A stretch of DNA of 64,000 nt, taken from contig JAIOIU010000162.1 in the NCBI GenBank assembly GCA_019912425.1, forward strand, positions 1 through 64,000. Reading direction: 5' to 3'. Made by a program: the position numbers and the translations under genes. The notes below the pieces were generated by a model. The model made no database searches and was not told the DNA's origin. It saw only the letters and a list, made by a program, of their open reading frames with translations. Below, one piece after another: positions 1-31,218 of this stretch (within the stretch, counting starts at the first letter, position 1; each line of letters starts with the position of its first letter). The stretch comes from Candidatus Methylomirabilis tolerans. GTDB lineage: Bacteria; Methylomirabilota; Methylomirabilia; Methylomirabilales; Methylomirabilaceae.

Positions 1-282
1 ATCCGGAAGCTTCTGGCTGATGCCCACACCCGAGTCGAGCAGACGCTTGCCAGTAGACGCGGCGAACTGGACGCATTGGCCAAACTGCTGCTGGAAAAGG
101 AGGTAGTTGATCGGGAGGCCCTGACGCAGTTGCTGGCGTCCAAAAGGGTCTCGGAGTGTGAGAATTCAGATTCAGAGAGCGGATGTGATGTCGGCTGGTT
201 TGAAATCCGTATAGGCCTGTCGTGCTCTGCCCTGTGCTGGCGTCGGGTCTCTACCCGACGCCAGCGGCTCGCGCTTTCCTGA
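1..282 (+). CDS. ftsH: ATP-dependent zinc metalloprotease FtsH, C-terminal end (partial)
   Basis: This is an open frame entering from the left edge, 93 residues to a TGA at 280-282. Residues 1-50 have the FtsH tail pattern: an amphipathic helix, then an ARxxL-like RRGELDALAKLLLEKEVVDREAL segment (split here: RRGELDAL, AKLLLEKEVV, DREALTQLL). FtsH is a membrane-anchored AAA+ protease that degrades damaged membrane proteins and short-lived regulators; its catalytic part lies outside the window. After residue 50 the tail is low-complexity and runs through a perfect 13-bp inverted repeat, so the last 40 or so residues look like read-through into former 3' UTR. The identity rests only on the tail helix pattern and is moderately secure. 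Confidence 0.6.
   Translation: MRKLLADAHTRVEQTLASRRGELDALAKLLLEKEVVDREALTQLLASKRVSECENSDSESGCDVGWFEIRIGLSCSALCWRRVSTRRQRLALS
236..265. repeat. Perfect 13-bp inverted repeat (hairpin)
   Basis: Arms 236-248 and 253-265 are perfectly complementary around a 4-base loop. There is no T-run on either side, so it is a hairpin rather than a typical intrinsic terminator. It lies inside the frame of the upstream FtsH tail and just before the convergent usp gene. Confidence 0.7.
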
Positions 283-288
283 AGATCT

Positions 289-795
289 CTAGGGCGTTAC
301 GAACTCATGCTCCGGGTTACGAACGGAAAGGACCGGACACGGGGCCCCGCGAACCACTCTCTCAGCGACACTGCCTATCGGGGGTTCCCATGGAAAATTC
401 TGCCCGATGTTAGGCCCTTCAGTGCTTCGGCCGTGCGTGCCCATCACAATGAGGTCAACCTCCTGCTCGGTGGCGTATTGTAGAATCTGCTGGACCGGAT
501 GACCCACCACCGTTGTCAGGTTCAGTTCAAGATCCTTTCGCTCCGCCTCCGAGAACAATTGCTTCATCTGTTCGTCGGCCCGCTCCTTCCACCGCTTTTC
601 CCGCTCCGCGCTCGACAGTCCCATGACCTCGGGTTCGACCCCGAACGCCCACGGCGTGACGGAGGCATCCGGCAATACATGCAAAACATGCACTGAGCCG
701 TGGTACGCGGAGGCGAAGTTCCGCGCATACTTGATCGCCACCTTCGAGGCCTCGCTGAAATCCGTCGGCACCAGCACCTTCTTGAGTGTAATCAT
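289..795 (-). CDS. Universal stress protein (UspA family)
   Basis: A 168-residue UspA-fold protein. It opens with KKVLVPTDFSEAS (the Usp beta-1/Walker-like start) and ends with GSVAERVVRGAPCPVLSV, the ATP-binding and dimerisation end of the family. The start at 795 is chosen because a GGGAGGT ribosome site lies just upstream and the family begins there; the longer frame to 864 adds an unrelated leader. The usual GxxGxxxxxxxxxG(S/T) ATP motif is stretched: about 16 residues including EGPNIGQNFPWEPP separate GTHGR from the final GS. ATP binding may therefore be altered. It is the first of five Usp genes in 30 kb. Confidence 0.9.
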   Translation of the reverse strand: MITLKKVLVPTDFSEASKVAIKYARNFASAYHGSVHVLHVLPDASVTPWAFGVEPEVMGLSSAEREKRWKERADEQMKQLFSEAERKDLELNLTTVVGHPVQQILQYATEQEVDLIVMGTHGRSTEGPNIGQNFPWEPPIGSVAERVVRGAPCPVLSVRNPEHEFVTP

Positions 796-895
796 TTGGG
801 ACCTCCCTGGAAGGAAATGCGTTGAGTGTTTTCTCCGAACCGTTGTAAGTGTGCTACATCGCACTCAGCTAGCCGCCCGTATTTGACTCCCCTTG

Positions 896-1488
896 ATGAT
901 TGATGAGGACCTATCATCTTGACGATGAGCGCCGCGAGATAGCCGCAACTCGGCTTGACCGGGAAACTTTTACTCGCACGGGCTCTTTCCCGGAAACACT
1001 ATACACGATTTCACCCTGTGATAGAAAGATAATCTTCTATCGTCTTGTCATCAAGACATAGTCCATAAAATAAACATTGGCGATGCTGAAGATTCGTTTT
1101 ACCATTTGTGAGATAGTAATCAATAGAACAACTTAGACGATTAGTACTCTGCTACCCGTTTCGATTGTCTCGTGCAGACGGGGCGCCGTCTCAGGTCCGG
1201 GATAGGGACCGCATTGGCCAAGCAAGAGCCATACTTCGACTTCTATTAATCGGATGTTTTTACGGCTGGGACATTCAGCTTCCTATTGGGGCAGAGATGT
1301 CACACATACCTTTTCACTTTATTTTCTGATAATTATCTTATCTCCATCGCTTTATGCTGGGGCAGCTCTTCCCCATCTGGTATAGGGGCGCTCGGGTATC
1401 TCTTTATACGCCAGAGAATCGTGCAGGGGAGGACCTGTTATTTCATGTAGTTAGGCAAAGCGCTGAAATCGCCCCATTGACGGGATAG
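896..1488. other. Long AT-richer intergenic region without a gene
   Basis: About 600 bases between the leftward usp gene and a rightward sigma-54 promoter. Base composition is visibly lower in GC than the flanks. I see only small palindromes (6-7 bp arms at about 1021-1042, 1043-1058 and 1172-1187) and no convincing reading frame or known RNA. It probably holds the usp promoter and regulator sites, but none is clear enough to call. Confidence 0.5.
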
Positions 1489-1505
1489 TTGGCACCGACA
1501 TTGCT
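1489..1505 (+). promoter_or_regulatory. Sigma-54 promoter (-24/-12)
   Basis: The sequence TTGGCACCGACATTGCT has the -24 GG at 1491-1492 and the -12 GC at 1503-1504, exactly ten bases between GG and GC. It agrees with the TGGCAC-N5-TTGC consensus at every core base. It reads toward the receiver-domain gene, with the MITE-like element 1541-1652 between them. An NtrC-type activator is encoded at 43321-44709. Confidence 0.7.
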
Positions 1506-1540: not shown

Positions 1541-1652
1541 GTCATTCTCGGAAAGTTGGTCCCGGCACGTTGTAAGCCGGGAGTGAGAATCCAGCAAGAC
1601 TCTGGATTCCCCCGTATCAAGTACGGGGCGGGCCTGTCAAGCCCGGAATGAC
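1541..1652. repeat. MITE-like palindromic repeat with GTCATTC/GAATGAC ends
   Basis: A 112-bp element bounded by GTCATTC (1541-1547) and GAATGAC (1646-1652). Its centre holds an internal palindrome, GAATCCAG ... CTGGATTC. This is the general form of small dispersed intergenic repeats seen in many bacterial genomes. Only one copy is in the window. Its right end supplies an in-frame ATG (1648) for the following gene. Confidence 0.6.
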
Positions 1653-1665
1653 AAACTACGAGACC

Positions 1666-2112
1666 ATGATGAGTGACCAGCGGAAGGTGTTGATTGTCGC
1701 GCGGGAATCATCGATTCGACAGCAGATCTTTAATCGCATCTCAGCCAATGGATACCAGGCCGTTACTGCCGAAAGAGGATATGATGCGCTCCTCACCGTT
1801 GTCGAGCAGAACGTCGGACTGGTCATTATCGACCTTTCGATCGACGAATCCGCCGGCGTAAAAACCGTTGAGATCCTCCGAAAGATTCGGCCTCGCTTAC
1901 CCCTGGTAGTCTTGTTCGGTGACCGGTCGCTCGAAGCGGGTCGCCAGGTTCTCCAATATGGTGTCTTCTATTATCTGCTCAAGCCTGTTGACCTTGAGGA
2001 GCTCGATCAGATTATCCGGATTGCTCTTACCTCCAACAGGCAAGAGACTACAGGAATGGAGCAGAAGGCTCAAGAATGGAGACCGGCAGGAGAGAGGGGA
2101 GGGGTGGCATGA
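1666..2112 (+). CDS. Response-regulator receiver-domain protein with degenerate acidic pocket
   Basis: About 148 residues with a CheY-like fold: beta-1 KVLIVARES, the phospho-acceptor Asp in VIIDLSID, a conserved Lys in LLKPVD, then a short charged tail with no DNA-binding domain. The usual acidic pair after beta-1 (DD/DE) is replaced by Ala-Arg, leaving only Glu, so Mg2+ binding and phosphorylation may be lost or changed. The start is uncertain: ATG 1648 lies inside the MITE-like element, and ATG 1666 or 1669 follows it; none has a strong ribosome site. The gene overlaps the next by ATGA, so the two are probably co-translated. Confidence 0.75.
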   Translation: MMSDQRKVLIVARESSIRQQIFNRISANGYQAVTAERGYDALLTVVEQNVGLVIIDLSIDESAGVKTVEILRKIRPRLPLVVLFGDRSLEAGRQVLQYGVFYYLLKPVDLEELDQIIRIALTSNRQETTGMEQKAQEWRPAGERGGVA

Positions 2113-3218
2113 CGGTAACCCGGCGTGTCGTGAACATCGGTATATTGACGATGGCATCGCTGCTGATCGTTCACTCGACTGCGCTTGCGCATGGGGCGGG
2201 TGTGCGCGGTACGCAGGCGCTCTATGTTGCGAATGAGGGCTCGGATACGGTCTCGGTTATGGATGTTGGGTCAATGAAGGTGATCGGCACCATTACTGTG
2301 GGCTCTGGCCCGCAGCATGTCGCAGTCAGCCCGGATCGTCGTTATGCCTTTGTTACGTGTGGCCGTTCGGCTGAGGTCTGGATTCTGGATTTGCCCACCC
2401 ACGCTGTTGCTGCCGTAGTGCCCAACACTACCGGCCCAGGGGGCCAGACGGTTTTTGGAGCCGGCGCGACCTATGCCTACGTTACCAATAGTCTCTACAG
2501 CCGAGTTACGGTGATTGAGGCTGCCACTGGAAAAAAGGTTGCGATGATCCCGGTGGGAGAAGCACCCACGAAGATCGGCATCTCCCCGGACGGCAGCCAC
2601 GCCTACGTTCCAAGTGAGCGATCCAACACGGTTGCCACGCTGAATCTTTCGCTGAATGTCGTCGCGGCGGAGCTGCCGGTCGGCGTGAGGCCCTATGCCG
2701 TCGAGGTCTCTCCCGATGGCAAGTACCTGCTGGTCTCCAGTACCGATTCAGGCACTGTCACCGTCATCGAGGCCGCAACCCGGAAGCCGTTACGCAGAAT
2801 CCCTGTCGGTGACGACCCGCATCACGTTGTGTTCGGCCCCGGTGGGGCCTTTGCGTACGTTCTGAATAGGGGTTCGGACAACCTGAGTGTTATCCAGATG
2901 GCGAATCATCAGGTGGTGGCGACTATCCCTGTGGGGAAGGAGCCAAGCGATGCCGACATCACTCCATCCGGCCACTACATCTATGTGACGAATACGGGAG
3001 GGGACGATGTGTCGATCATCTCAACGCGAACCAGCACCGTGGTAGGGACGATCCCTGTAGGAACCCGTCCCCACGATATCGTCATCTCCGGCGACGGGCG
3101 GTACGCCTTTGTGGCCAATACCGGATCGGATGATATCTCCGTGATCAACCTGCTGTCCCAGACAACGGTAGGGCGAGTGCCTGTCGGCAAGCGCCCCATT
3201 GGGATGGCCTTATGGTGA
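2109..3218 (+). CDS. YVTN-family beta-propeller repeat protein, exported
   Basis: 369 residues starting at the ATG overlapping the previous stop, preceded by a purine-rich ribosome site. The N-terminus (TRRVVNIGILTMASLLIVHS then ALAHG) is a Sec signal peptide. The rest is about eight blades of roughly 42 residues, each with YV(T/A)N, a VSVI-type strand, a VGTIPVG-type strand and (S/T)PDG turns. Such proteins sit in the periplasm or on the surface as binding scaffolds; some accompany c-type cytochromes. No CxxCH heme motif or catalytic residue is visible, so the ligand is unknown. Confidence 0.85.
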   Translation: MTVTRRVVNIGILTMASLLIVHSTALAHGAGVRGTQALYVANEGSDTVSVMDVGSMKVIGTITVGSGPQHVAVSPDRRYAFVTCGRSAEVWILDLPTHAVAAVVPNTTGPGGQTVFGAGATYAYVTNSLYSRVTVIEAATGKKVAMIPVGEAPTKIGISPDGSHAYVPSERSNTVATLNLSLNVVAAELPVGVRPYAVEVSPDGKYLLVSSTDSGTVTVIEAATRKPLRRIPVGDDPHHVVFGPGGAFAYVLNRGSDNLSVIQMANHQVVATIPVGKEPSDADITPSGHYIYVTNTGGDDVSIISTRTSTVVGTIPVGTRPHDIVISGDGRYAFVANTGSDDISVINLLSQTTVGRVPVGKRPIGMALW

Positions 3219-3282: not shown

Positions 3283-5241
3283 ATGACCAGCGAGCAATTT
3301 CCCTTTCCAGGTATTCCAGCCACAGCAGATGGCTCGGCGGCGGTGGTCTGGGTAGACTCGCATATTACGCAGGGCGCTTGCGCCTATCCGATTACCCCCT
3401 CCACCAACATGGGGACCGGATACCAGGCGGAGGTCGCGAACGGCAAATGTAACCTTTGGGGTGAACCGCTCTTCTTCCTCGAGCCCGAGTCAGAGCATAG
3501 CTCTGCGTCCTCATGTGAGGGTTTCGCCCTGGCCGGGGGCCGAGTCTCGAACTTTACCTCCGGTCAAGGGCTGGTCCTGATGAAGGAGGTGCTCTACACC
3601 ATCGCCGGCAAGCGGCTCCCGGCGGTTTTCCATATCGGCGCCCGCGCGCTGACCTCCCAGGCGCTGAACGTCCACGCCGGCCACGACGATGTGATGGCGG
3701 TAGCCGATGTCGGCTGGGGGATGCTCTTTGCGAAGAACGCCCAGGATGCGGCTGATCTGGCGCTCATCGCCCGCCGCGCCGCCGAGGAGGGAGAGACCCC
3801 CTTCATGACGGTACAGGACGGCTTTCTCACTACCCACACGATCGAGAATCTCCTGCTTCCTGAGCCGGAGCTGATGAAGGAGTTCATTGGGGACCCGCAT
3901 GCCGGCACGCGCCTGCGCAATCTCATGAATCCCTTGAAGCCGATTATGAGCGGCGTTGTGCAGAATCAGGATAGTTACATGAAGGGAAAGATCGCCCAGC
4001 GGTTTTTCTACGATCGGCTGCCGACGATTGTCGAGCGGGCGATGGAACAGTTTTACTTCCTGACAGGCCGTCGGTATGGCCTGGTGGAGGCGTACCGGCT
4101 GGAGGATGCCGACTATGCCATCGTGGGGATGGGGGGACTGGTCGAAACCGCTATGGCTACCGTCGATTATCTCCGAGCCCATCGCGCAATTCGGGCCGGC
4201 GCACTGCACGTGACCAGCTTTCGTCCATTCCCAGGCCCGCAGATCGTCGAGGCAACGAAGCACCTGAAGGCCATGGCGATCATCGAGCGGATGGACAATC
4301 CCATCGCTCAATCAAACCCTCTTACCGTCGAGATCAAGGCGGCGTTCGCCGATGCGCTGACGGGCACTCCAGGGTACCCGGCGATAGGCCGTATGCCGAT
4401 TATCTATTCGGGTTCGGCCGGGCTGGGCAGTCGGGATATCCGCCCCGGAGACCTCGTGGCCACCATAGAGAATATGCGGCGCGACGATGGCGGGTCTCGC
4501 TACTTTGTCCTGGGAATCAAGCACGGCTTGGCGCTCGTGCCTTCCGACGATCCAAATATCCAACCGGCCGGCGCCTTCTCAATGCGTGGTCATTCGGTCG
4601 GTGGATTCGGGTCGGTGACGACCAACAAGGTGATTGCCACGATCGTCGGCGATCTCTTCGGTCTGAAGGTTCAGGCCTACCCGAAGTACGGCTCCGAGAA
4701 GAAAGGGCTGCCTACCACCTACTATCTGACCGTAGCCAAAGAGCGGATTCGTACTCACTGCGAGCTTACGCAGGTCGATTTCGTGCCCCTTAACGACATC
4801 AACGCCTTCAATCTTGGTAACCCGCTCGCGGGCTTGGTAGAGGGAGGCATGATTTTCATCCAGACCGACAAGACGACGCCTGAGGAGGTCTGGACGCAGA
4901 TCCCTGACTACGCGAAGAGGATCATTCGGGAGCGGTGCATCCGGGTTCTCGCTCTGGACACCGTGAAGATCGCGCGCGAGGTCGCCAGCTCTCCAGACCT
5001 GGAGCAACGGATGCAGGGGATTGTCCTCCTGGGGATTTTCCTCCGCTGCACGCCGTTTCTCCGCGAGCAGCGTCTCTCCAAGGAGCAGGTCTTCTCGGCG
5101 GTAGAGCGGTCGTTGCGGAAGTACTTTGGCAAGCGTGGTGAGCAGGTCGTTCGTGATAACCTGGAGGCGGTGAGACGAGGCTATACCGAGGTCTTTGATC
5201 TCCCGGTAGAAATAATGGCAGAGGCAGGACTGGCCGTATAG
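3283..5241 (+). CDS. porA: Pyruvate:ferredoxin oxidoreductase, fused alpha-gamma chain
   Basis: 652 residues. Residues about 1-400 are the alpha part, with the YPITPSTNMG pyrimidine-binding loop and SEHSSASSCEGFALAGGR. Residues about 430-640 are the gamma part, with GxGSVGxxxxNKV-type HSVGGFGSVTTNKV. The start at 3283 follows an AGGAGA ribosome site. With the next gene it forms a complete PFOR, which oxidises pyruvate (or a related 2-oxoacid) and CoA to acetyl-CoA, CO2 and reduced ferredoxin in the cytoplasm, or runs in reverse. The chain matches the first half of a NifJ-type single-chain enzyme. Substrate specificity cannot be proven from sequence. Confidence 0.88.
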   Translation: MTSEQFPFPGIPATADGSAAVVWVDSHITQGACAYPITPSTNMGTGYQAEVANGKCNLWGEPLFFLEPESEHSSASSCEGFALAGGRVSNFTSGQGLVLMKEVLYTIAGKRLPAVFHIGARALTSQALNVHAGHDDVMAVADVGWGMLFAKNAQDAADLALIARRAAEEGETPFMTVQDGFLTTHTIENLLLPEPELMKEFIGDPHAGTRLRNLMNPLKPIMSGVVQNQDSYMKGKIAQRFFYDRLPTIVERAMEQFYFLTGRRYGLVEAYRLEDADYAIVGMGGLVETAMATVDYLRAHRAIRAGALHVTSFRPFPGPQIVEATKHLKAMAIIERMDNPIAQSNPLTVEIKAAFADALTGTPGYPAIGRMPIIYSGSAGLGSRDIRPGDLVATIENMRRDDGGSRYFVLGIKHGLALVPSDDPNIQPAGAFSMRGHSVGGFGSVTTNKVIATIVGDLFGLKVQAYPKYGSEKKGLPTTYYLTVAKERIRTHCELTQVDFVPLNDINAFNLGNPLAGLVEGGMIFIQTDKTTPEEVWTQIPDYAKRIIRERCIRVLALDTVKIAREVASSPDLEQRMQGIVLLGIFLRCTPFLREQRLSKEQVFSAVERSLRKYFGKRGEQVVRDNLEAVRRGYTEVFDLPVEIMAEAGLAV

Positions 5242-5373: not shown

Positions 5374-7059
5374 ATGGCAGATCAAGAGCGGGCATACAAT
5401 CATCCGGATGAAGAGCGCATCGAACAGGTCGCCGGGACCAAGCCTCGCGGGCTTGAAACGGAGATCCACGAGAGCGCCTTGCCACCGACCGGGCTCCTGG
5501 AACTGGATATCGAGCAGTATGTGAGCGACTTCAACGAGCGGATCATTGGAGCGTATGCAACCGGGACGGGAGAACAAAGCCTTTCGACTGATGTCGGGGT
5601 AGCCCGCAGCCTGATCCCGCCGGGGACCGGCGCCCTGCGCGACTTCAGTTACATCGCACCGGAGATCCCCCGGTTCGATCGAGAGCGGTGTGTCGGCTGC
5701 ATGGCCTGTGTGACGGAGTGTCCCGATACCGCCATCCTGGGCAAGGCGATCCCGAGATCGCGCCTGGAGGCCGAACTGAATACCATCACCGACGATCGGG
5801 AGCGGGAGGGGATCCGCGCCCAGTGGGCCGAGACGAAAAAATATTACGAGGTCTACGAAAAAAAGGGGGACGAGGGAGCCCTCTTCGGCATCTTCATCGA
5901 TCCCAACAAGTGCAAGGGGTGCGCCGAGTGCGTCGAGGTCTGCGGAACTCTCGGCTATCATGCCCTGACGATGGTGAAGAAGGACGAGACGACGCTTCCC
6001 CGTTATCGCAGCTACCTGAATTTCTTTCGGCAGGTCGGTCCGACCCCGCGTCAGTATATCAACGAGCGGGCGCTGGCGGACATGATGCTCCATGAGGAGG
6101 CGGCGCTCCTCTATGTCGGCGGCGCCGGCTCGTGCATGGGGTGTGGCGAGGCGACCGCGATCCGGATGATGCTTGCCGCGACCGGATTTGTCTACGGCGC
6201 GGAGGCGGTCGGGATCGTGGCGGCGACAGGGTGCAACACGGTCTACGGTTCGACCTATCCGTACAATCCATTCCTGGTTCCCTGGACCAACTCCCTGTTC
6301 GAGAACGCGCCGGCCATGGCGATGGGGGTCCGCGCCAAGTGGGACCAACGCGGATGGCAGGAGAAAAAGCTCTGGGTGATTGGAGGGGACGGGGCGATGT
6401 ACGACATCGGTTTCCAGTCGCTCTCGCGAATGTTGGCCTGCGGGATGGACATCAACGTGCTGATCCTGGATACGCAGGTCTACTCCAATACCGGGGGACA
6501 GGCCTCCACGGCGACCTATACCGGGCAGGATGCAAAGATGGCCACCTTCGGCAAGGCGGTGCCCGGCAAGCGGGAGCGGCGTAAAGAGCTGGCGCAAATT
6601 GCCATGATGCACCCGGATACCTTTGTTGCGCAGACCACGGCGGCCCACATCAACCATTTTTACCGAGCCATCATGGCGGCCAATGAGTACCACGGCCCGG
6701 CCGTGGTCACTGTCTACACGACCTGCCAACCTGAACACGGCGTGGCAGACGACCGATCTTCGCATCAGGCGAAGCTGGCGGTCGATTCCCGGGCCTTCCC
6801 GCTCTTTATGTACGACCCACGGAAGGGAGAAAGGATCAGGGAGCGACTCAGTCTGGTGGGTAATCCGGCGGTAAGCGAGGACTGGTATAGGATCCCTCAC
6901 ACAGGAGAGGTCATCGACTTTCTGGCTTTTGCCAGGACAGAGGGCCGGTTTGCGAAACAGTTCGATGCGGAGGGCCGCCCGTCTGAAACCCTTCTCTATA
7001 CCCAAGCCGAGCGACTTCAAAACTGGCGGCGCCTGCAAGAGTTGGCCGGAGTGCGATAG
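5374..7059 (+). CDS. porB: Pyruvate:ferredoxin oxidoreductase, fused delta-beta chain (2x[4Fe-4S] + TPP)
   Basis: 561 residues. After a 110-residue N-terminal region come two 4Fe-4S ferredoxin motifs, CVGCMACVTECP (near 109-120) and CKGCAECVEVCG (near 183-194). The TPP-binding beta domain follows, with GSCMGCGEA, then GDGAMYDIGF and later NTGGQ. The gene completes the PFOR begun at 3283: electrons pass from TPP through the two clusters to ferredoxin. The first cysteine motif of the beta part (SCMGCGE) likely ligates the proximal cluster. A GGAGG ribosome site precedes the ATG. The enzyme is thus a NifJ-like polypeptide cut into two genes separated by 132 bases. Confidence 0.9.
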   Translation: MADQERAYNHPDEERIEQVAGTKPRGLETEIHESALPPTGLLELDIEQYVSDFNERIIGAYATGTGEQSLSTDVGVARSLIPPGTGALRDFSYIAPEIPRFDRERCVGCMACVTECPDTAILGKAIPRSRLEAELNTITDDREREGIRAQWAETKKYYEVYEKKGDEGALFGIFIDPNKCKGCAECVEVCGTLGYHALTMVKKDETTLPRYRSYLNFFRQVGPTPRQYINERALADMMLHEEAALLYVGGAGSCMGCGEATAIRMMLAATGFVYGAEAVGIVAATGCNTVYGSTYPYNPFLVPWTNSLFENAPAMAMGVRAKWDQRGWQEKKLWVIGGDGAMYDIGFQSLSRMLACGMDINVLILDTQVYSNTGGQASTATYTGQDAKMATFGKAVPGKRERRKELAQIAMMHPDTFVAQTTAAHINHFYRAIMAANEYHGPAVVTVYTTCQPEHGVADDRSSHQAKLAVDSRAFPLFMYDPRKGERIRERLSLVGNPAVSEDWYRIPHTGEVIDFLAFARTEGRFAKQFDAEGRPSETLLYTQAERLQNWRRLQELAGVR

Positions 7060-7272: not shown

Positions 7273-8382
7273 ATGTTACCTGTCATTACTGCATTTGATC
7301 ACTTAGTCTTTGCCGAGGCCCCGAAGCTGATCTATTGGGAGCTTACGCGGGCCTGCGATTTGGTGTGTACGCATTGTCGCGCCGAAGCCATCGCGCAGCG
7401 TGACCCATTGGAGCTCAGCACGGAGGAGGCAAAAGCCCTGCTCGCAGAACTCCGGACATTCGGGGACCCGCCTCCGCAACTGGTTATGACCGGCGGCGAC
7501 CCACTGAAACGTCCGGATTTCTTTGATCTGGTGCGACACGGCAGAAGCGTTGGGCTGCCGATATCCGTGGCTCCAAGCGGTACCCCACTGCTCACATCGG
7601 ATGCGATCACGGCTTTGGCGGATAACGGGGTTGTGAGTATGTCGCTCAGCATCGACGGCTCGACGGCCTCCAGTCACGATCGATTTCGCGGAGTCGCCGG
7701 TTGCTTCGATACCACCATGCGCGCCATCCACGCTGTCAGGGCGGCTGGTATCCCACTACAGATCAACACCCTGGTTACCCCCGAAACCATGACGGAGCTG
7801 CCCGGTGTGTTCCGGTTACTCCAGAACCTGGGGATTATGCGGTGGAGTCTCTTTTATCTGATCGCCACGGGGCGTGGCCGGACGCTGCGAGAGATCAGAC
7901 CCAGCGAGGCCGAAGCGCTTCATAACTGGTTGTACGACGTCGTCAAGACGGCCCCATTCGCGATCAAGGCGACGGAGGCCCCGCACTTTCGTCGCGTTGC
8001 CTACATGCGAATGCGGCTGGAAGGTCTGGACGATGCCGCAATTCGGCAGACGCCTATCGGACGCGGATTCGGTATCCGCGACGGGAACGGCATCATGTTC
8101 ATCTCGCATACCGGAGACGTCTATCCATCCGGGTTCCTGCCGGTAGTGGCCGGGAACGTGCGTCAGCAGAGCCCTGTATCGATATACCGTCATAGTGATA
8201 TATTTGCCCGAATTCGCAACGCCGATCAATATGCCGGCAAGTGCGGCCTCTGCGAGTTTCGCTGGATCTGCGGCGGGTCGCGAGCCCGCGCGTTTGCCGA
8301 GACCGGCGATGCCATGGGAAGCGATCCGCTGTGTGCCTATAGGCCGGAGGCCGCGATGGTAGGGATGACGGAGGGCGATTGA
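7273..8382 (+). CDS. Radical SAM/SPASM protein, heme-synthase (AhbD/NirJ)-like
   Basis: 369 residues. WELTRACDLVCTHCRAEA near residue 25 gives the CxxxCxxC [4Fe-4S]/SAM site, TGGDPL follows as the GGE-like SAM motif, and the C-terminus holds a SPASM-type cluster region (CGLCEFRWICGGSRARA ... GDPLC-like). The layout matches the AhbD/NirJ/mycofactocin-maturase-like branch, whose members decarboxylate heme precursors or modify peptides. No other heme gene or precursor peptide lies beside it. A strong GGGAGGG ribosome site precedes the ATG. The reaction is unproven; heme- or cofactor-related chemistry is the likeliest. Confidence 0.8.
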   Translation: MLPVITAFDHLVFAEAPKLIYWELTRACDLVCTHCRAEAIAQRDPLELSTEEAKALLAELRTFGDPPPQLVMTGGDPLKRPDFFDLVRHGRSVGLPISVAPSGTPLLTSDAITALADNGVVSMSLSIDGSTASSHDRFRGVAGCFDTTMRAIHAVRAAGIPLQINTLVTPETMTELPGVFRLLQNLGIMRWSLFYLIATGRGRTLREIRPSEAEALHNWLYDVVKTAPFAIKATEAPHFRRVAYMRMRLEGLDDAAIRQTPIGRGFGIRDGNGIMFISHTGDVYPSGFLPVVAGNVRQQSPVSIYRHSDIFARIRNADQYAGKCGLCEFRWICGGSRARAFAETGDAMGSDPLCAYRPEAAMVGMTEGD

Positions 8383-8612: not shown

Positions 8613-9071
8613 ATGCAGATTTCACGGATCCTTTTCCCGACCGATTTCTCTCATGATGCCGAACACGCATTCCAGTATGCGTTGATCCTTGCCCGCAAGT
8701 TTGAGGCCGAACTCTACATTCTTCACGTCATCTACTTCCCCCCCCAGACTCCGGAATACGACATCGGACAGGTCATCGACAGCCTGGTCAAGAATGCTCA
8801 GGATAGCTTGAAAAAGCTGGTCGAGAGTGTCAACGATCCGAATCTGGTCCTTCATCTTGACGTGCAGGTCGGGGTGGAGCATGCCGAGATTACGAAATGT
8901 GCTGAGAAGGAAAAGATCGATCTTATCGTGATGGGGACCCGCGGACGAACCGGGCTGGCTCATGTCTTTCTGGGAAGTGTCGCCGAGCGGGTAGTTCGCC
9001 ACGCCTCCTGCCCTGTCCTGACGGTGAAGCTCCCGACAACGAAAGGTGCAGAGGCGGCGACGAAGGGGTGA
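8613..9071 (+). CDS. Universal stress protein (UspA family), ATP-binding type
   Basis: 152 residues beginning SRILFPTDFSHDAE, with VMGTRGRTGLAHVFLGSVAERVVRH-type ending (split: GTRGRTGLAHVFLGS, then VAERVVR). The G-2x-G-9x-G-S ATP motif is complete, so this should be an ATP-binding Usp acting as a homodimer. A GGAGGGG ribosome site supports the start. The stop overlaps the GTG start of the APH-like kinase, which suggests one transcript through to at least 11.1 kb. Confidence 0.93.
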   Translation: MQISRILFPTDFSHDAEHAFQYALILARKFEAELYILHVIYFPPQTPEYDIGQVIDSLVKNAQDSLKKLVESVNDPNLVLHLDVQVGVEHAEITKCAEKEKIDLIVMGTRGRTGLAHVFLGSVAERVVRHASCPVLTVKLPTTKGAEAATKG

Positions 9072-23919: not shown

Positions 23920-24420
23920 ATGGCGGGTCGTAAGGTTCCTGTCAAATCGGTGAAGAAGGTTGGTTCACTGCTCAGTGAGTTGTTAGAGATTGAGCGACAG
24001 GTGTCGGAGCGCGCCCATGAGCTTTTTAGGGAGCATGGTTGGCAAGCCGGCCACGAAGGTGAGTACTGGCTGCAGGCTGAAAAGGAGCTTCTGTGGCGAC
24101 CCTGTGCAGAGCTGGTTGAGACCGATGGAGAGCTTCGAGCAAGCTTTGCCATGGCCGGCCTTACCGCCAAGGAGATCGAGGTGCTGGCTGAACCCAACCA
24201 CCTGACGGTGCGAGCGATCACAAGGCACGAAGACAGGCAGGAGGAAGGGACCTGCCACTTCTGCGAGTTCCATCGTGGGGAGCTCTACCGATCAATGGCC
24301 TTGCCGAGTACCGTTATCCCGGAGAAGGCTCAGGCGGAGATGAAAGAGGGGATGCTCACGGTTATCCTTCCCAAGGGGAAAGAGCCTGCCGGTAAAACAA
24401 TCCGGATGAAAAAAGCGTGA
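23920..24420 (+). CDS. DUF2934-Hsp20 fusion protein
   Basis: 166 residues. Residues about 27-60 (VSERAHELFREHGWQAGHEGEYW then LQAEKELLW) match the DUF2934 pattern. From about 65 an Hsp20/alpha-crystallin domain follows (AELVETDGELRASFAMAGL ... EGMLTVILPK). Its sequence is far from the other Hsp20 at 11.2 kb, and CHFCE adds a CxxC. It is probably a holdase with a targeting module. AAGGAGGAG precedes ATG 23920, which is why the longer frame from 23803 is rejected. Confidence 0.82.
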   Translation: MAGRKVPVKSVKKVGSLLSELLEIERQVSERAHELFREHGWQAGHEGEYWLQAEKELLWRPCAELVETDGELRASFAMAGLTAKEIEVLAEPNHLTVRAITRHEDRQEEGTCHFCEFHRGELYRSMALPSTVIPEKAQAEMKEGMLTVILPKGKEPAGKTIRMKKA

Positions 24421-24555: not shown

Positions 24556-25041
24556 ATGACAATTCCAGCACGGGTGCGCGAGTGGTTGGATCAACAGCAG
24601 GTGCGGTATGAGGTGATCCCTCACCGGGAGGTGTACACGGCTCAGGAGGTAGCCGGCGCCACCCACATTCCCGGTCGGGCTTATGCCAAGGTAGTTATTC
24701 TAAAAGGGCGGCAAGGCCTGATGATGGCGGTTCTGCCGGCCAAGTGTCGGCTGGATGTCGTTCGGATGCGGCAAGTCGTAAATGACAGCACGGCGAGCCT
24801 GGACCCGGAGGCGGACTTCGCGAAGATATTCACCGGCTGCGAGCCTGGGGCCATGCCCGCCTTTGGTAATCTTTACGGGGTCCCGATCTACTGTGATCAG
24901 CACCTGACACATGAGGCGACGATCGCCTTTCCTGCGGGAAGTCACCATGAGGTGATCCGAATCGCGTCCAGCGACTTCCTCCGATTGACAGGCGCTCAGG
25001 TGCAGGAGATCTGCACAAGCGCGCAAGAACAAGCCGCGTGA
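24556..25041 (+). CDS. YbaK/ProX-type aminoacyl-tRNA deacylase domain protein
   Basis: 161 residues of the YbaK/aa-tRNA-synthetase-associated fold: VREWLDQQQVRYEVIPH at the start, a conserved Lys in YAKVVILK, and GCEPGAMPAFGNLYGVPIY typical of the family. Members hydrolyse mischarged aminoacyl-tRNA in trans. Stress-block members of this family are often stand-alone like this one. GCGAGGAGG precedes the ATG, and a hairpin follows the stop. Confidence 0.88.
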   Translation: MTIPARVREWLDQQQVRYEVIPHREVYTAQEVAGATHIPGRAYAKVVILKGRQGLMMAVLPAKCRLDVVRMRQVVNDSTASLDPEADFAKIFTGCEPGAMPAFGNLYGVPIYCDQHLTHEATIAFPAGSHHEVIRIASSDFLRLTGAQVQEICTSAQEQAA

Positions 25042-25060: not shown

Positions 25061-25109
25061 AGGCAGAAGGCTCCTGGACGGCGTGAGCCGAGGGGGCCTT
25101 CTGCCTTTA
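25061..25109. terminator. Intrinsic terminator between convergent genes
   Basis: Arms 25061-25071 and 25096-25106 form an 11-bp perfect stem (AGGCAGAAGGC / GCCTTCTGCCT) with a 24-base loop and a short TTT run on the right. It separates the rightward YbaK-type gene from the leftward adenosine-specific kinase gene and overlaps the end of the latter. Confidence 0.6.
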
Positions 25110-25595
25110 CAGTTTATAGCCGAACTGGCGGAGCAGCGCCTTACGCGCGGCGATGTCGGATTCCTGCTCGACCCCTTTTGGTGACAGTCCATCTACGACC
25201 CCTACGATACCCCGCCCGTTGGGCGTTTCAGCCAGAATCACCTCCACCTGGTTGGCAGTCGCGCAGTAGATGCCACACACCTCGGGCACCTGACGAATGG
25301 CCGAAAGGACATTGATCGGAAAGCAGTTCCGCAAGAAGATCAGGAAGCTGTGGCCGGCCCCGATAGCCTGGGCGTTGCCCCGCGCCAGCTCCGTCAGCTC
25401 CTGGTCGGTTCCGCTCCATCGCACCAGGCACGGTCCAGAGGACTCGCAGAATGCGAGCCCAAAGGCAATACCAGGCACAGCCGTCACAAGGGCCTCGTGC
25501 AGGTCCTCAACGGTCTTGATGAAGTGCGCCTGCCCCAAGACCAGGTTGACCGAGTCAGGTTTGTGGATGGTCACTGAGATGAAATTTACCGCCAT
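25107..25595 (-). CDS. Adenosine-specific kinase (PF04008 type)
   Basis: 162 residues, the normal length of this small family. Recognisable are FCESSGPCLVRWSGTDQELTELA, GAGHSFLIFLRNCFPINVL and CGIYCATANQVEVI. The family is mostly archaeal; the crystal-structure member is annotated as an adenosine-specific kinase that phosphorylates adenosine to AMP. Biochemistry in bacteria is thin. GGAGGGAGGAG precedes the ATG. It is 63 bases downstream of the CDC48 gene on the same strand, so probably one transcript. Confidence 0.88.
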   Translation of the reverse strand: MAVNFISVTIHKPDSVNLVLGQAHFIKTVEDLHEALVTAVPGIAFGLAFCESSGPCLVRWSGTDQELTELARGNAQAIGAGHSFLIFLRNCFPINVLSAIRQVPEVCGIYCATANQVEVILAETPNGRGIVGVVDGLSPKGVEQESDIAARKALLRQFGYKL

Positions 25596-25658: not shown

Positions 25659-27944
25659 CTACAGATAGTGGCCGCCGGGGGGGTGGTCGGGTTGCGGGGC
25701 GCCCTGGCGCAGGCGTTTGCCGACCTCGGCGTACTCCCGCTCCATACCCTCGGTGACAGACGGGAGTGTCTCGGAAAGGGCGGCCAGGAAGTCGGCGTGG
25801 GTGACCGCCTTGGCCTCCAGGTCCTTGCGCAGGGCAAGCTGGGCGGCACGCATGCAGATCAAGGCCAGGTCAGCCCCGGTAAACCGGTCGGTCCTGCGGA
25901 CAAGGTCCTTCAGGTCCACGTCGTCGGTGAGGGCCATGTGACGGGTATGAACAATGAGGATCTCGTGGCGGGCGGCGGCGTCCGGGACCGGCACGTAGAC
26001 CAGCGCATCGAAGCGCCCGGGGCGCAGCAGCGCCGGATCGATGAGGTCTGGCCGATTGGTCGCTCCCAGAATGACGACGCCGCGCAGCTCCTCCAGGCCG
26101 TCCAGCTCGGAAAGAAGCTGGTTCACGATCCGCTCGGTCACATGCGGTTCGCCTGCCGCCGTGCCGCGTCGCGGCACAAGGGCATCCACCTCGTCGAAAA
26201 ATACGATGGCCGGAGCCACTTGGCGAGCTTTGGCGAAGAACTCTCGAATCCGTTGCTCCGACTCGCCGTACCACTTGGAGAGCAGATCGCTCCCTTTGGC
26301 CAGCATGAAGTTGGCCTTCGCCTCGTTGGCGACGGCCTTGGCCAGGAGGGTCTTCCCGGTCCCCGGCGGACCGTAGAGCAGGACCCCTTTGGGTGGCTTG
26401 ATGCCGAGGCGCTCGAAGGCCTGAGGATGGGTCAGGGGCAGCTCCACAGACTCCCGAAGGGCCCTTTTCACGTCGGCCAGGCCGCCGACATCGCTCCAGG
26501 TGACCCGAGGGACCTCGATGAACAGCTCCCGAAGGGCAGAAGGACGGATCCGCCGCAAGGCCTGGTTGAAGTCCTCATGGGTGACGACCAGGCGCTCCAA
26601 GACCTCGGCCGGGAACGTCTCAAGCCTCAAATCCAGATCCGGGAGGACGCGCCGTAGCGCATTCAGAGCGGCCTCACGGCAGAGAGCGGCCAGGTCTGAC
26701 CCGACGCATCCATGCGTAAGGTCTGCCACCCAATCCAGATTTACGTCTGGCGCAAGGGGCATGGCTCGCGTGTGGATCGTGAGGATCTGGCGCCGCCCAT
26801 TGCGGTCCGGCACGCGCAGTTCAATCTCTCGATCAAAGCGGCCTGGGCGGCGCAATGCCAGATCGATCGCGCCGACGCGGTTCGTAGCCCCGATGACAAT
26901 CACGTTGCCGCGTGGCATGAGGCCATCCATTAATGTCAGAAGTTGGGCCACGACCCGCCGTTCCACCTCACCCATCACCGCCTCGCGCTTGGGGGCGATG
27001 GAATCCAACTCGTCGATGAAGATGATGGCGGGTGGGTTGTCTTGCCCTTCCTGAAAGATGGCTCGCAGCCGTTCCTCTGATTCGCCATAGAAGCGCCCCA
27101 TGATCTCTGGTCCATTGATGGTGGCGAAGTGGGCTTTGGCCTCATTGGCCAGGGCCTGGGCCAGAAGGGTCTTGCCGGTCCCTGGAGGGCCGTGAAGGAG
27201 CACACCCTTGGGCGGTGCGATCCCAAGCCGATCGAACAGCTCCGGATGCTTGAGCGGCAGCTCGACAACCTCCCGGATTTCACTGATTACCTCGCCTAGC
27301 CCGCCGATGTCATCGTAGGTGATATCCGGGAGGCGGGTCTCCTTGGTCTCCACGTACTCCGGCAGGAGCTCCACCTCGGTTTGGGGATTGATGCGCACAA
27401 TGCCGGACGGGACGGTGCCGGCGACGACCAGGCGCACCTCGCCAAGCCCTATCGCCAGGGAGCCCAGCAATCCTCTGAAAAGTTCCTCCGGATACATCCC
27501 GGGCGGGACAATCTCCTTTGAGCGTGAGGCGGTCCCGACTGAGATCAGGTCGCCACGAACCACAGGACGGTAGAGGAGCGCCTGGCGAAGAACCTCGCCG
27601 GGGGCGACGGCACGCAAGCCTTTGCGGGCGGGAGCCAGCGTCACCTTCTGCGCATCCCGCCAGGGAGCCTTTCGCACCTGCACGTAATCCCCTATGCTGG
27701 CATGGGCATTGGTGCGAATCACGCCGTCGACCCTGATCACATCCAGGCCTTGATCGGCCGAGCGGGCCGCTGCCACCAGGGCAGCCGTTTCCCGTTCTCC
27801 GATAATGGAAAGGATTTCGCCTCGCTCCAACTCCAGGGCGGCAAAGGCCGCATCGCTGACACGGACGATCCCGCGGCCGACGTCCTCCTGACCCGCCTCG
27901 GCCACCTTCAGACGAATACCTTCCGCCGTTTGAGCCTGTTGCAT
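25659..27944 (-). CDS. CDC48/VAT-type double AAA+ ATPase
   Basis: 761 residues with archaeal VAT layout. An N-terminal double-psi-barrel substrate domain covers about 8-190. The D1 AAA domain has Walker A GPPGTGKT 252-259, Walker B IIFIDELDSIAPKR and ATN. The D2 AAA domain has a second GPPGTGKT 525-532, FFDEVDALVPRRG and GATNRPD. Both domains keep arginine fingers (RRPGRFDR, LRPGRFD). It unfolds proteins for degradation or recycling, presumably with FtsH- or Lon-type proteases since bacteria usually lack a proteasome. AAGGGAG lies upstream of the ATG. It is archaeal in type but fits local codon use. Confidence 0.93.
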   Translation of the reverse strand: MQQAQTAEGIRLKVAEAGQEDVGRGIVRVSDAAFAALELERGEILSIIGERETAALVAAARSADQGLDVIRVDGVIRTNAHASIGDYVQVRKAPWRDAQKVTLAPARKGLRAVAPGEVLRQALLYRPVVRGDLISVGTASRSKEIVPPGMYPEELFRGLLGSLAIGLGEVRLVVAGTVPSGIVRINPQTEVELLPEYVETKETRLPDITYDDIGGLGEVISEIREVVELPLKHPELFDRLGIAPPKGVLLHGPPGTGKTLLAQALANEAKAHFATINGPEIMGRFYGESEERLRAIFQEGQDNPPAIIFIDELDSIAPKREAVMGEVERRVVAQLLTLMDGLMPRGNVIVIGATNRVGAIDLALRRPGRFDREIELRVPDRNGRRQILTIHTRAMPLAPDVNLDWVADLTHGCVGSDLAALCREAALNALRRVLPDLDLRLETFPAEVLERLVVTHEDFNQALRRIRPSALRELFIEVPRVTWSDVGGLADVKRALRESVELPLTHPQAFERLGIKPPKGVLLYGPPGTGKTLLAKAVANEAKANFMLAKGSDLLSKWYGESEQRIREFFAKARQVAPAIVFFDEVDALVPRRGTAAGEPHVTERIVNQLLSELDGLEELRGVVILGATNRPDLIDPALLRPGRFDALVYVPVPDAAARHEILIVHTRHMALTDDVDLKDLVRRTDRFTGADLALICMRAAQLALRKDLEAKAVTHADFLAALSETLPSVTEGMEREYAEVGKRLRQGAPQPDHPPGGHYL

Positions 27945-28476: not shown

Positions 28477-28950
28477 ATGATACCGAGGTATCGAAAACTG
28501 CTGGTGCCTACGGATTTCTCGCCCCTCGGGAACACCGCCATCTCCCACGCATATGCTATTCTGGCGGAACAGGGCGGGACCGTCATCCTCTGCCACGTGA
28601 CTGAAGTACACGGACCGCCGAGCCCGCTCTACGCTCACTACTCACCATGGGGCGCACTTTCCGGGCAGGAGCGGACGGAACTCCGGCAGACACTGCTCAA
28701 CTCGCTTGAATCACTTGTGCCTGCGGAAGCCAGCGCAGAGGGGTTGGTGACAACGGAAGTGCGGGTGGTAGAGACCCCTTTGTTGGTCCACGAGGCGATC
28801 TGCCAGGAGGCCACGACTCTGGATGTAGACCTCATCGTGATGGCATCTCATGGCCATTCCGGGGTGACTCGCCTGCTCCTTGGCTCAGTAGCAGAACACG
28901 TATTACGGTTAGTCGATCGCCCCGTCCTTATTGTTCGCAGCCGGGAGTGA
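28477..28950 (+). CDS. Universal stress protein (UspA family)
   Basis: 157 residues: RKLLVPTDFSPLGNTAISHAY at the start and MASHGHSGVTRLLLGSVAEHVLR (split: ASHGHSGVTRLLLGS, VAEHVLR) at the end. The first Gly of the G-2x-G-9x-G-S motif is Ala here, so ATP binding may be weak. GGAAGGAG stands 11-12 bases before the ATG, slightly far. It stands alone, divergent from the CDC48 operon. Confidence 0.9.
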   Translation: MIPRYRKLLVPTDFSPLGNTAISHAYAILAEQGGTVILCHVTEVHGPPSPLYAHYSPWGALSGQERTELRQTLLNSLESLVPAEASAEGLVTTEVRVVETPLLVHEAICQEATTLDVDLIVMASHGHSGVTRLLLGSVAEHVLRLVDRPVLIVRSRE

Positions 28951-29205: not shown

Positions 29206-29229
29206 GACACCTGGGACAGGGGGGAATGG

Positions 29230-30117
29230 ATGAAGCGGATGATGATGGCAGTCATGACAGCGATAACGCTGATTGCGGCGGCTCCAGGATTAGTTCTGGC
29301 TGCCGGTTACGGTAACCCGCAGTTTCTGGTAGACACCGACTGGCTGGTCTCGCACCTTAATGACCGGGATCTGCGGATCATCGATATGCGCAACAGCCCG
29401 GAGGAGTACGCGGCCGGACACATTCCTGGCGCGGTCCACCTTCCTGTTAATCAAGTTCGTCTGGCCTTGAAAGAGTCAGGTTTCGCGCTGCCTCCAGATT
29501 ATGAAATCGAGGAGCGACTGGGGCAGCTAGGGATCACCAAAGAGACGATGGTGGTGGTGTACGACGACCAGGGAGGGTTCAACGCCTCACGCCTGTTCTT
29601 TACTCTCGAATATGCCGGCCACAAAAAGGTCGCACTGTTGAACGGAGGCATCACGAAATGGGTAGCCGAAAAGCGGGCCCTCTCGAACGCGCTGCAGCAG
29701 GTGAGCAAGACGGTCTATCAGATCCATACCGAGACGCAACGCGTGGCGCCGGCGAGCTGGATCGTTGCAAATCTGGGAAAGCCGAATCTCGCCCTGGTGG
29801 ATTCCCGGTCGCCTGCTGAATTTCGCGGTGAGGATATTCGGGCCAAGCGGGGAGGCCACATCCCAGGGGCTGTGAACATCGAGTGGACGCAAAATTTGAC
29901 CGGCGACAAGACATTCAAGTCAGCCGATGAACTCCTGGCCCTCTATAGCCAGGCAGGGGTGACGAAAGATAAGACGATCGTAAGCTATTGCCAGACCATG
30001 CATCGTGGAGCCGTTACCTACTTCACGCTTCGACTCCTGGGATATCCGGACGTTCGGGGGTACGATCGTTCCTGGAGCGAGTGGGGCAATGATCCTACGC
30101 TGCCGGCAAAGTGGTGA
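29230..30117 (+). CDS. Periplasmic tandem rhodanese (thiosulfate/3-mercaptopyruvate sulfurtransferase)
   Basis: 295 residues. A signal peptide (KRMMMAVMTAITLIAAAPGL then VLAA) precedes two rhodanese domains. The first (about 32-145) has DMRNSPEEYAAGHIPGAVHLP but no catalytic Cys. The second (about 170-290) has the active-site loop SYCQTMHRGA with Cys, preceded by DSRSPAEFRG. It moves sulfane sulfur from thiosulfate or mercaptopyruvate to an acceptor such as cyanide or a thiol. Export implies a role in periplasmic sulfur chemistry. Confidence 0.9.
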   Translation: MKRMMMAVMTAITLIAAAPGLVLAAGYGNPQFLVDTDWLVSHLNDRDLRIIDMRNSPEEYAAGHIPGAVHLPVNQVRLALKESGFALPPDYEIEERLGQLGITKETMVVVYDDQGGFNASRLFFTLEYAGHKKVALLNGGITKWVAEKRALSNALQQVSKTVYQIHTETQRVAPASWIVANLGKPNLALVDSRSPAEFRGEDIRAKRGGHIPGAVNIEWTQNLTGDKTFKSADELLALYSQAGVTKDKTIVSYCQTMHRGAVTYFTLRLLGYPDVRGYDRSWSEWGNDPTLPAKW

Positions 30118-30219
30118 GTGGGTGGTAGAGATCAAAGATGCTCCACGGCAGACGGCTGGACGTGCGGTAGACCTTGGCGACGACAGACTGCAACCTTATG
30201 CGACGGCTTGAGGAGAGAC

Positions 30220-31218
30220 ATGGGTGAGTTGCGGCGTGATCCGGTAGCAAATCGCTGGGTGATCATTGACCCGGAACGGCCGGATCGAGAGGCGGGCCTG
30301 AAAGTGGAAGCGCAGCCGCCTCCACCGCTTTCCGGCCCATGTCCGCTTTGTCCGGGTAATGAGGCGATGACTCCGCCAGAGATCGCCGCATTTGGCGAGC
30401 CCTCGCGTCAGCCGAATCAGGCCGGCTGGTGGGTGCGAGTCACCCCTGACCTGCAGCCCCTGTGCCGGATTGAGGGTGATTTCGATCGACGGCCGGAGGG
30501 ACCCTTCGACGTGATGAACGCCATAGGGGCCCATGAGATCGTCATAGAGAGTCCAGAGCACCATTTGACATGGGCGGAACTCCCGGAGCAACAGTTGGAG
30601 CGGGTCCTGCGCATCTACAAGCTGCGGAGCCTTGACCTCCGCATGGATGAGCGGTTCCGATCGCTGATTGTGGTAAAGAACCATGCAGACGCGGCGAGCA
30701 TCCTTAGTCATCCCCATTCCCACGTACTGGCTTTGCCGTTCGTCCCGTTCGGACTTGAAGAGGAGTTGCGCGGCTGTCGAGAGTTCTATGCAAGAAAGGA
30801 TCGCTGTGCCTTCTGTGATATTATACTCCATGAGCGGGTCTCCCGCGTCAGAAGGGTGGTAGAGACCGACCACTTCGTGGTGCTGGCACCCTTTGCCTCT
30901 CGGTTTCCTTTCGAGACGTGGCTGCTGCCCCTTCGTCACGCCTCCGATTTCGCGCGGATCGGTGATAGAGAGCTGATCGATCTCGCCGGCCTTCTGAAGC
31001 GGATGATGCAGATGATCGGGAAGGTTCTCGGCAACCAGGCCTGCACCATAGTCCTCCACACCACCCCATTTGACGAATCGCATACGCATGATTATCACTG
31101 GCATCTCGAGATACTGCCGAAAACCGCACCCGTAGTAGGATTCGGGTGGGGTGCGCGGCTCTTTGTGAACCCGGTTCCACCTGAGGAGGCGGCCGCTTTA
31201 ATGGGGCAAGCGATGTAG
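30220..31218 (+). CDS. galT: Galactose-1-phosphate uridylyltransferase-like protein (HIT superfamily)
   Basis: 332 residues from ATG 30220 behind GAGGAGA. Zinc-type CPLC (C41, C44) and CAFC pairs and a HWHLEILPK end are those of GalT. The nucleotidyl-transfer triad reads H164-P-H166-S-H168; GalT normally has Gln in the third place and HIT hydrolases have His. GalT exchanges UMP between UDP-glucose and galactose-1-phosphate. With His168, and no galK or galE nearby, the true reaction could be a nucleotide-sugar phosphorylase or hydrolase instead. Confidence 0.8.
   Translation: MGELRRDPVANRWVIIDPERPDREAGLKVEAQPPPPLSGPCPLCPGNEAMTPPEIAAFGEPSRQPNQAGWWVRVTPDLQPLCRIEGDFDRRPEGPFDVMNAIGAHEIVIESPEHHLTWAELPEQQLERVLRIYKLRSLDLRMDERFRSLIVVKNHADAASILSHPHSHVLALPFVPFGLEEELRGCREFYARKDRCAFCDIILHERVSRVRRVVETDHFVVLAPFASRFPFETWLLPLRHASDFARIGDRELIDLAGLLKRMMQMIGKVLGNQACTIVLHTTPFDESHTHDYHWHLEILPKTAPVVGFGWGARLFVNPVPPEEAAALMGQAM

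Follow-up and report, generated by a model that had tools for sequence, protein, structure and literature searches.

Stress, protein-repair and energy genes in a conserved block

A block of about 33 kb in Candidatus Methylomirabilis (NC10), a genus of methane oxidisers that use nitrite, brings together stress, protein-repair and energy genes and is, in our judgement, probably a genus-conserved maintenance island of the lxa type that would serve cells limited for energy or for electron acceptors. Within the window, the 64,000-nucleotide stretch of DNA analysed here, the gene order running from the response regulator (RR) and YncE genes to the nicotinate phosphoribosyltransferase (NAPRTase) gene (~1.6-33.2 kb, ~27 genes) is the same in 8/8 other genomes of the genus compared, and the identity of the encoded proteins across the genus is mostly ~75-97%. 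In contrast, 24 genes at 34-64 kb, lepA, polA and rho among them, lack a syntenic counterpart within ~48 kb in three of these genomes, G005, G006 and G011. The right end of the syntenic block is the NAPRTase gene (ending at 33168), and the putative nicotinamidase and NAPRTase genes beyond position 31218 still belong to it. The features of the block are as follows.

1..165 (+): 3' end of ftsH (Pfam M41, E 1.8e-6), belonging to an exact 322-bp duplication
289..864 (-): UspA, single-domain universal stress protein (PF00582, 1.2e-29)
1490..1505 (+): sigma-54 -24/-12 promoter-like site, TGGCACCGACATTGCT
1648..2112 (+): receiver-only RR (PF00072, 2.7e-16), closest to NtrC/AtoC-type receivers; best NCBIfam match GlrR/AtoC
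2136..3218 (+): YncE/YVTN beta-propeller protein (PF21783, TIGR02276)
3283..5241 (+): 2-oxoacid:ferredoxin oxidoreductase (PFOR), alpha and gamma domains (PF01855, 1.4e-56; PF01558)
5374..7059 (+): PFOR, ferredoxin and TPP (beta) domains (PF02775, Fer4)
7273..8382 (+): radical SAM/SPASM protein, TIGR04053 family (465.8 bits, cut-off 395)
8613..9071 (+): UspB (PF00582, 2.4e-34)
9068..10195 (+): APH-like kinase (PF01636, 1e-9), kept across the genus
10205..10786 (+): APS-kinase-like P-loop kinase, paired with the APH-like gene (PF01583, 6.7e-22; under the NCBIfam APS-kinase cut-offs)
10803..11075 (+): small four-cysteine protein, no Pfam or NCBIfam match; CPYL..YC..LCTT..C.LY conserved in the genus
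11160..11603 (+): Hsp20 holdase (PF00011, 1.4e-24)
11663..12205 (+): BCAM0308-family zinc protein, NMD3-like by profile (NF040826, PF04981)
12217..13419 (+): archaeal-type S-adenosylmethionine synthetase, MAT (PF01941, 1.1e-147)
13441..14085 (+): CBS-CBS(-ACT), AcuB-like sensor (PF00571, 4.8e-32); best plasmid match an AcuB-family protein
14096..14905 (+): UspC, tandem Usp (PF00582 in two stretches)
14928..17684 (+): class II cation P-type ATPase (PF00122, PF00689; TIGR01106 645 bits, under the cut-off of 946)
17681..18025 (+): ribbon-helix-helix protein, possible regulator (PF01402, 20.6 bits, cut-off 20.5)
18095..18658 (+): GNAT acetyltransferase (PF00583, 2.7e-12)
18992..21433 (+): LonB/LonC-like AAA protease (PF13654, 2.5e-52; PF20436, PF20437)
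21426..23852 (+): phosphoenolpyruvate (PEP) synthase, PpsA (TIGR01418, 1168 bits)
23935..24420 (+): second Hsp20, with N-terminal DUF2934 (PF00011, 4.8e-12; PF11154)
24556..25041 (+): YbaK-type aminoacyl-tRNA deacylase (PF04073, 7.1e-22)
25107..25595 (-): adenosine-specific kinase (PF04008, 9.5e-75)
25659..27944 (-): CDC48 AAA unfoldase (TIGR01243, 987 bits, cut-off 803)
28477..28950 (+): UspD (PF00582, 8e-30)
29230..30117 (+): double-rhodanese sulfurtransferase (PF00581, 5.3e-42)
30208..31218 (+): GalT-like nucleotidylyltransferase (PF01087, 3.3e-8)
31229..31834 (+): isochorismatase-family protein (PF00857, 8.5e-33)
31831..33168 (+): NAPRTase (PF17767, 1.3e-37)
33229..33306 (+): tRNA-Arg(GCG), bordering the block on the right

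Every kind of gene named in a preliminary description of this DNA was recovered in its place with Pfam and NCBIfam, with some corrections. The five Usp genes counted there are four genes carrying five Usp domains, UspC being a tandem; the CBS pair of the supposed CBS-ACT protein was confirmed, but Pfam gave no match to ACT; and the FtsH tail is indeed the 3' end of ftsH, but as a duplicated copy. Its reading as a broken gene was rejected, being better explained by the 322-bp duplication, with an intact ftsH lying ~3.7 kb farther to the left in G014, a genome of the same species, and off the present contig; in the genus genomes, ftsH forms the left end of the block. A homologue of UspA lies between the PFORb and radical SAM genes in G011, G013 and REEB33, and two bacterial-type MATs are encoded elsewhere in the same genome. 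The isochorismatase-family protein is a probable nicotinamidase, since the NAPRTase gene adjoins its own. A structure model of the small cysteine protein was too poor for use (pLDDT 43). PFOR, PEP synthase and NAPRTase serve ordinary metabolism as well, a point that counts against a maintenance island.

The Usp genes are clustered beyond chance, four of the six in the 2.65-Mb genome falling within 31 kb (p ~9e-5 by simulation); two of the three Hsp20 genes also lie in the block, which alone is not significant (p ~0.07 by simulation). The PEP synthase gene has been lost in four genomes of the genus (G005, G011, G001 and G002), and Hsp20a, BCAM0308 and most of MAT have been lost in place in G002, so that parts of the block are dispensable. 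An Rfam search of the whole window, riboswitches included, returned nothing except the tRNA-Arg, and the literature yielded nothing usable on expression of the block genes in Methylomirabilis.

A conserved sigma-54 promoter-like site

The only conserved regulatory element found for the block is the sigma-54 -24/-12 site, which precedes the RR gene in 6/6 genus genomes having RR, is absent where RR is absent, and covers one end of the block only. The genome contains rpoN, and to judge from the site the RR/propeller/PFOR end probably depends on sigma-54 RNA polymerase for its transcription. The RR itself is receiver-only, with no match to an HTH family in Pfam.

The BCAM0308-family protein resembles NMD3

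NMD3 is a large-subunit factor of archaea and eukaryotes. By sequence and predicted fold, the BCAM0308-family protein of the block is NMD3-like, a resemblance that is new here. The protein scores 138.8 bits against NF040826 (curated cut-off 100), and its likely start is 11690, not 11663, M10 being kept in aligned relatives. It matches the NMD3 profile PF04981 around positions 128-218, with 29.2 bits (gathering score 24.9), and 14 of 17 family members match this profile with E no higher than 0.1 (the best at 1.9e-10), one of them, L042, reaching 41.2 bits and some others falling under the cut-off. In a Foldseek search of the PDB with a moderate structure model (mean pLDDT 70.5), NMD3 chains or NMD3-bearing pre-60S entries made up six of the nine best matches, headed by 5t62_V (probability 1.00, with a modest E of 4.5e-3). 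A profile search of PDB sequences gave no match to NMD3, Foldseek against a viral library gave weak matches, none of them NMD3, and a PF04981 search of the protein's own genome raised no match. The resemblance extends to both profile and predicted fold, but the protein is bacterial and covers only part of NMD3, ~170-180 residues.

In Burkholderia, BCAM0308 transcripts of one B. contaminans isolate exceed those of another 12-90 fold (PMC4981469), and the B. cenocepacia protein is ~8-fold higher late in infection (PMC6127331). We tentatively suggest, as a possibility and not as our leading expectation, that the BCAM0308 family consists of bacterial relatives of NMD3 that bind ribosomes and, in concert with HPF and Hsp20, serve a ribosome-hibernation branch of lxa-type survival loci across bacterial phyla, the Methylomirabilis module being governed by sigma-54.

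Related clusters in other bacteria

The gene set recurs, differently arranged, in other phyla, and is also found in a distant NC10 genome. In the latter (CSP1-5/G022, cluster L021), a PAS/GAF histidine kinase, an NtrC-type sigma-54 activator and a sigma-54 site stand at the front, followed by GNAT, Usps, CBS, Usps, GNAT, Hsp20, a QPRTase-type gene and BCAM0308. This cluster thus shares Usp, CBS, GNAT, Hsp20, BCAM0308 and the sigma-54 site with the block, but differs in its complete kinase and activator and its QPRTase-type gene; PFOR, MAT, CDC48 and PEP synthase had no match in the 20 kb examined.

Azospirillum and Cupriavidus carry relatives of the block on megaplasmids, with varying subsets of Hsp20, BCAM0308, NAPRTase, PpsA, Usp, FtsH-like and MAT genes in another order, and with HPF, PRPP synthetase, PhaC and Crp/Fnr in place of PFOR and CDC48. 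The Azospirillum clusters comprise Hsp20-BCAM0308-NAPRTase with Usps, a histidine kinase and Crp/Fnr nearby, those of TSH58, 2020WEIHUA_K and A. oryzae also containing ppsA; close by in the last two lies a gene for the ribosome-hibernation factor HPF, a new observation. In C. oxalaticus, matches to MAT, BCAM0308, FtsH-like, NAPRTase, Usp and PpsA fall within 48 kb, with FixJ-like matches beside them. The APH-like protein had no match in the plasmids searched. Around the BCAM0308 homologues of G015-G017, G019 and G034 no comparable stress cluster was present in the DNA examined, and beside a B. stagnalis copy an FtsH-like gene was the sole neighbour of a block kind seen. The preliminary description had staked its anoxia or starvation module in part on co-occurrence outside this genome; that part of the claim survives, because such absence was not seen, and the interpretation as a whole is partly supported.

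Proposed function and alternative explanations

From these data we infer the function and trigger of the block, ribosome binding, and co-regulation of the whole. In Methylomirabilis cells short of energy or electron acceptors, damaged proteins would be held and dismantled by the two Hsp20s, FtsH, the LonB/C-like protease and CDC48; the Usps, the AcuB-like CBS protein and GNAT would sense adenylates and tune metabolism; the P-type ATPase, nicotinamidase and NAPRTase, PFOR and PEP synthase would maintain ion, NAD and PEP/acetyl supply; and the BCAM0308 protein could bind the large subunit and protect or park ribosomes. Quality control of proteins, the sensing of adenylates and possibly the storage of ribosomes would then meet in one conserved cassette, and the hitherto uncharacterised lxa marker protein gains a testable role as a bacterial NMD3 relative that may bind ribosomes when cells starve or run short of oxygen.

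The gene kinds in common with lxa, together with the Crp/Fnr genes by the Azospirillum clusters and the FixJ-like matches in C. oxalaticus, would also suit a low-oxygen regulon, in which falling oxygen acts through an Fnr/Crp- or FixLJ-type sensor to turn on the island for anoxic persistence, as is thought for Burkholderia lxa. We consider this unlikely: a scan of the window gave no match to FNR-, CRP- or DosR-type consensus palindromes, neither a Crp/Fnr nor a FixJ gene was recognised among those of the block, the conserved element is of the sigma-54 type, and B. contaminans lxa is expressed aerobically as well. Moreover, the Methylomirabilis group lives without external oxygen and makes its own from NO, so that low external oxygen is the normal state of the genus.

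A conserved neighbourhood, in which slow rearrangement preserves the order of housekeeping and stress genes that are for the most part independent and share neither regulation nor function, would account for the mixed content (GalT, rhodanese, YbaK) and for the separate losses of PEP synthase, RR and MAT/BCAM0308, but appears improbable given that synteny ends at the block edges, where flanking core genes are rearranged, and that the set is found again in other phyla. Least probable of all, in our view, is spread mainly by horizontal transfer of a hitch-hiking gene pool with no single physiological role; archaeal-type genes, megaplasmid relatives, the tRNA-Arg adjoining the right end and the duplicated ftsH end at the left speak for it, whereas conservation within the genus looks vertical and no integrase or transposase family was found among the block proteins searched (Pfam, NCBIfam).

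Comparison with the DosR regulon and the lxa locus

The DosR dormancy regulon of mycobacteria has Usp, Hsp20, CBS and P-type ATPase kinds in common with the block. The kinship proposed in the preliminary description is not supported: a pattern scan of the window matched no DosR box, and DosR and DosS are not among the families found in the block. The APH-like and P-loop kinases of the block are also encoded by two distinct genes.

The resemblance to lxa, the low-oxygen-activated locus of Burkholderia cenocepacia and B. contaminans (BCAM0275A-BCAM0323 and extensions; PMC4981469), was borne out, as the published lxa table contains the same gene kinds (PMC4981469). This likeness in gene content comprises BCAM0308 (NF040826) together with four Usp genes and two Hsp20 genes, PpsA, NAPRTase, a P-type ATPase beside a Usp, a response regulator and an FtsH-like protease. 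The last is represented by the ftsH gene that marks the left edge of the block in genus genomes and is not adjacent to BCAM0308, whereas in lxa the FtsH-like BCAM0309 adjoins BCAM0308 (PMC4981469). PHB synthesis, Pta/AckA and Crp-type regulators, all lxa features, were absent among the block proteins scanned (Pfam, NCBIfam), and no BON-domain protein was identified in the block. Conversely, PFOR, the TIGR04053 radical SAM protein, archaeal-type MAT, the LonB/C-like protease, CDC48, PF04008, the APH/APS-kinase-like pair and the sigma-54 site are additions of the Methylomirabilis block, which takes the lxa-type set of survival genes beyond Burkholderia and into another phylum, that of these uncultured methane oxidisers.

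Gene content and clustering of the block

The block extends from a response regulator (RR) and a YncE-like propeller gene to a nicotinate phosphoribosyltransferase (NAPRTase) gene, at about 1.6 to 33.2 kb. Pfam and NCBIfam scans recovered the gene kinds listed in the preliminary description, with two corrections: the five Usp genes claimed are four genes carrying five domains, and the FtsH tail at 1-165 is the last part of an exact 322-bp repeat that duplicates the 3' terminus of an intact ftsH. In a same-species genome (G014) the intact gene lies 3.7 kb to the left, and the direct repeat is exact (locus L037, 3537-3858 and 7269-7590, with about 3.4 kb of other sequence between); the window contig starts within it. 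The PF04008 gene and CDC48 are on the minus strand. The source genome (2.65 Mb, 167 contigs) contains six Usp-domain genes, four of them within 31 kb here, a concentration expected within any 31-kb stretch by random placement with p of about 9e-5. Two of its three Hsp20 genes are also here (p about 0.07, alone not significant).

Short GCTGA-type repeats are scattered between genes (7060-7272, 11076-11159, 18659-18991 and 28951-29229). A small four-cysteine protein at 10803-11075 (CPYL..YC..LCTT..C.LY), matching no known family, is kept across the genus with the P-loop kinase on one side and Hsp20 on the other.

Conservation within the genus

Searches with the BCAM0308 protein of the window (11663-12205, plus strand) retrieved loci of Candidatus Methylomirabilis and other NC10 bacteria, one of them 99% identical. 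Translated searches of regions from eight genomes (G014, G005, G011, G006, G013, G001, G009 and G002) revealed the same gene order in all from the YncE-like propeller to the second Hsp20, with CDC48, UspD, rhodanese, GalT and NAPRTase also in order wherever the compared region extends that far. The conserved order ends on the right with NAPRTase and tRNA-Arg. For the 24 genes tested immediately beyond this point, including lepA, polA and rho, G005, G006 and G011 show no syntenic counterpart within about 48 kb.

Within this order, some genomes carry additional CBS, GNAT and other genes. PEP synthase is absent from G005, G011, G001 and G002, with remnants in place in the first three, and translated search did not find Hsp20a, the Hsp20 preceding BCAM0308, at its usual place in G009. 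In G002 (contig C15, L063), Hsp20a, BCAM0308 and most of the archaeal-type S-adenosylmethionine synthetase (MAT) are deleted in place between sORF and CBS, leaving a 34-residue MAT remnant, a loss that fits with the two bacterial-type MATs elsewhere in the window's own genome.

Relationship of BCAM0308 to NMD3

The constants of the BCAM0308 family are two CxxC pairs and a C-terminal alpha/beta part. With an E cut-off of 0.1, Pfam NMD3 matched 14 of 17 members (best 1.9e-10). The register was constant (profile about 128-218) in all members whose best-matching stretch falls in that part of the protein; in the L078 member, a short match to the zinc region scores best instead. Across 14 control genomes, PF04981 matched in four archaea only. 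The AlphaFold model is of moderate quality, with a pLDDT of 70.5 and values below 50 over the first 41 residues. Its top PDB hit is NMD3 within a 60S complex, and NMD3 or pre-60S entries account for six of its nine best matches (E from 4.5e-3 up). The evidence supports a relationship to NMD3, albeit a remote one, because profile searching of PDB sequences recovered no NMD3 and the genome-wide PF04981 search did not score the window's BCAM0308 gene. NMD3 exports the large subunit in eukaryotes, which cannot be the job of BCAM0308 here; its role may be ribosome-associated.

BCAM0308 clusters outside the genus

The predicted co-occurrence beyond this genome was recovered, with counter-examples, in a comparison covering plasmid records, one paper's table and NC10. 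In the more distant NC10 bacterium CSP1-5 (L021), the order is GNAT, Usp, Usp, CBS, Usp, Usp, GNAT, Hsp20, a QPRTase-type gene and BCAM0308, and L020 is arranged identically up to its contig end. Ahead of these genes, L021 has a PAS/GAF histidine kinase, then a sigma-54 activator of NtrC type and a sigma-54 site. Azospirillum megaplasmids have adjoining Hsp20, BCAM0308 and NAPRTase, plus PRPP synthetase and Usps, the three being close together but rearranged in A. oryzae; annotated records also include a histidine kinase and a Crp/Fnr gene. The clusters of TSH58, A. brasilense 2020WEIHUA_K and A. oryzae include ppsA. HPF/RaiA (record annotation) lies about 5 kb before BCAM0308 in 2020WEIHUA_K, and HPF, 76% identical, directly after it in A. 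oryzae. In C. oxalaticus, 48 kb holds matches to MAT, BCAM0308, FtsH-like, NAPRTase, Usp, PpsA and FixJ-like proteins.

Five NC10 genomes (G015-G017, G019 and G034) have BCAM0308 with no such cluster in the surrounding DNA compared, and in B. stagnalis the sole neighbor matched by tblastn is FtsH-like. BCAM0308 relatives at L068, L070 and L076 are not in a stress cluster; by eye only, their neighbors resemble Rrf2-type regulator, cysteine synthase, ThiF-like and TldD-like genes.

Regulation and proposed function

All six genus genomes with RR have a conserved sigma-54 promoter-like site of the TGGCAC-N5-TTGC type some 140 bp ahead of that gene, and rpoN is present in the window's own genome. 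A pattern scan found no FNR-, CRP- or DosR-type palindromes. A histidine kinase and an NtrC-type sigma-54 activator (41509-44709) lie some 8 kb beyond the right end of the block; G005 showed no syntenic copy of the pair.

Beyond the observed content, order and fold, we infer every function assigned to the block. The Hsp20s, FtsH, LonB/C-like protein and CDC48 would hold and dispose of proteins, Usp, CBS and GNAT would exert control by adenylate sensing, other genes would supply ion, NAD and PEP, and BCAM0308 would protect ribosomes, the whole being used when energy or electron acceptor is short.

Comparison with known systems

Of the two systems to which the block had been likened, kinship to the DosR regulon is not borne out by the pattern scan. 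The likeness to lxa is supported at the level of gene kinds, which recur in the published lxa table (PMC4981469). Transcripts in B. contaminans are higher in isolate MF16_B than in 467_S (PMC4981469), and the BCAM0308 protein of B. cenocepacia is about 8-fold more abundant in late than in early isolates (PMC6127331).
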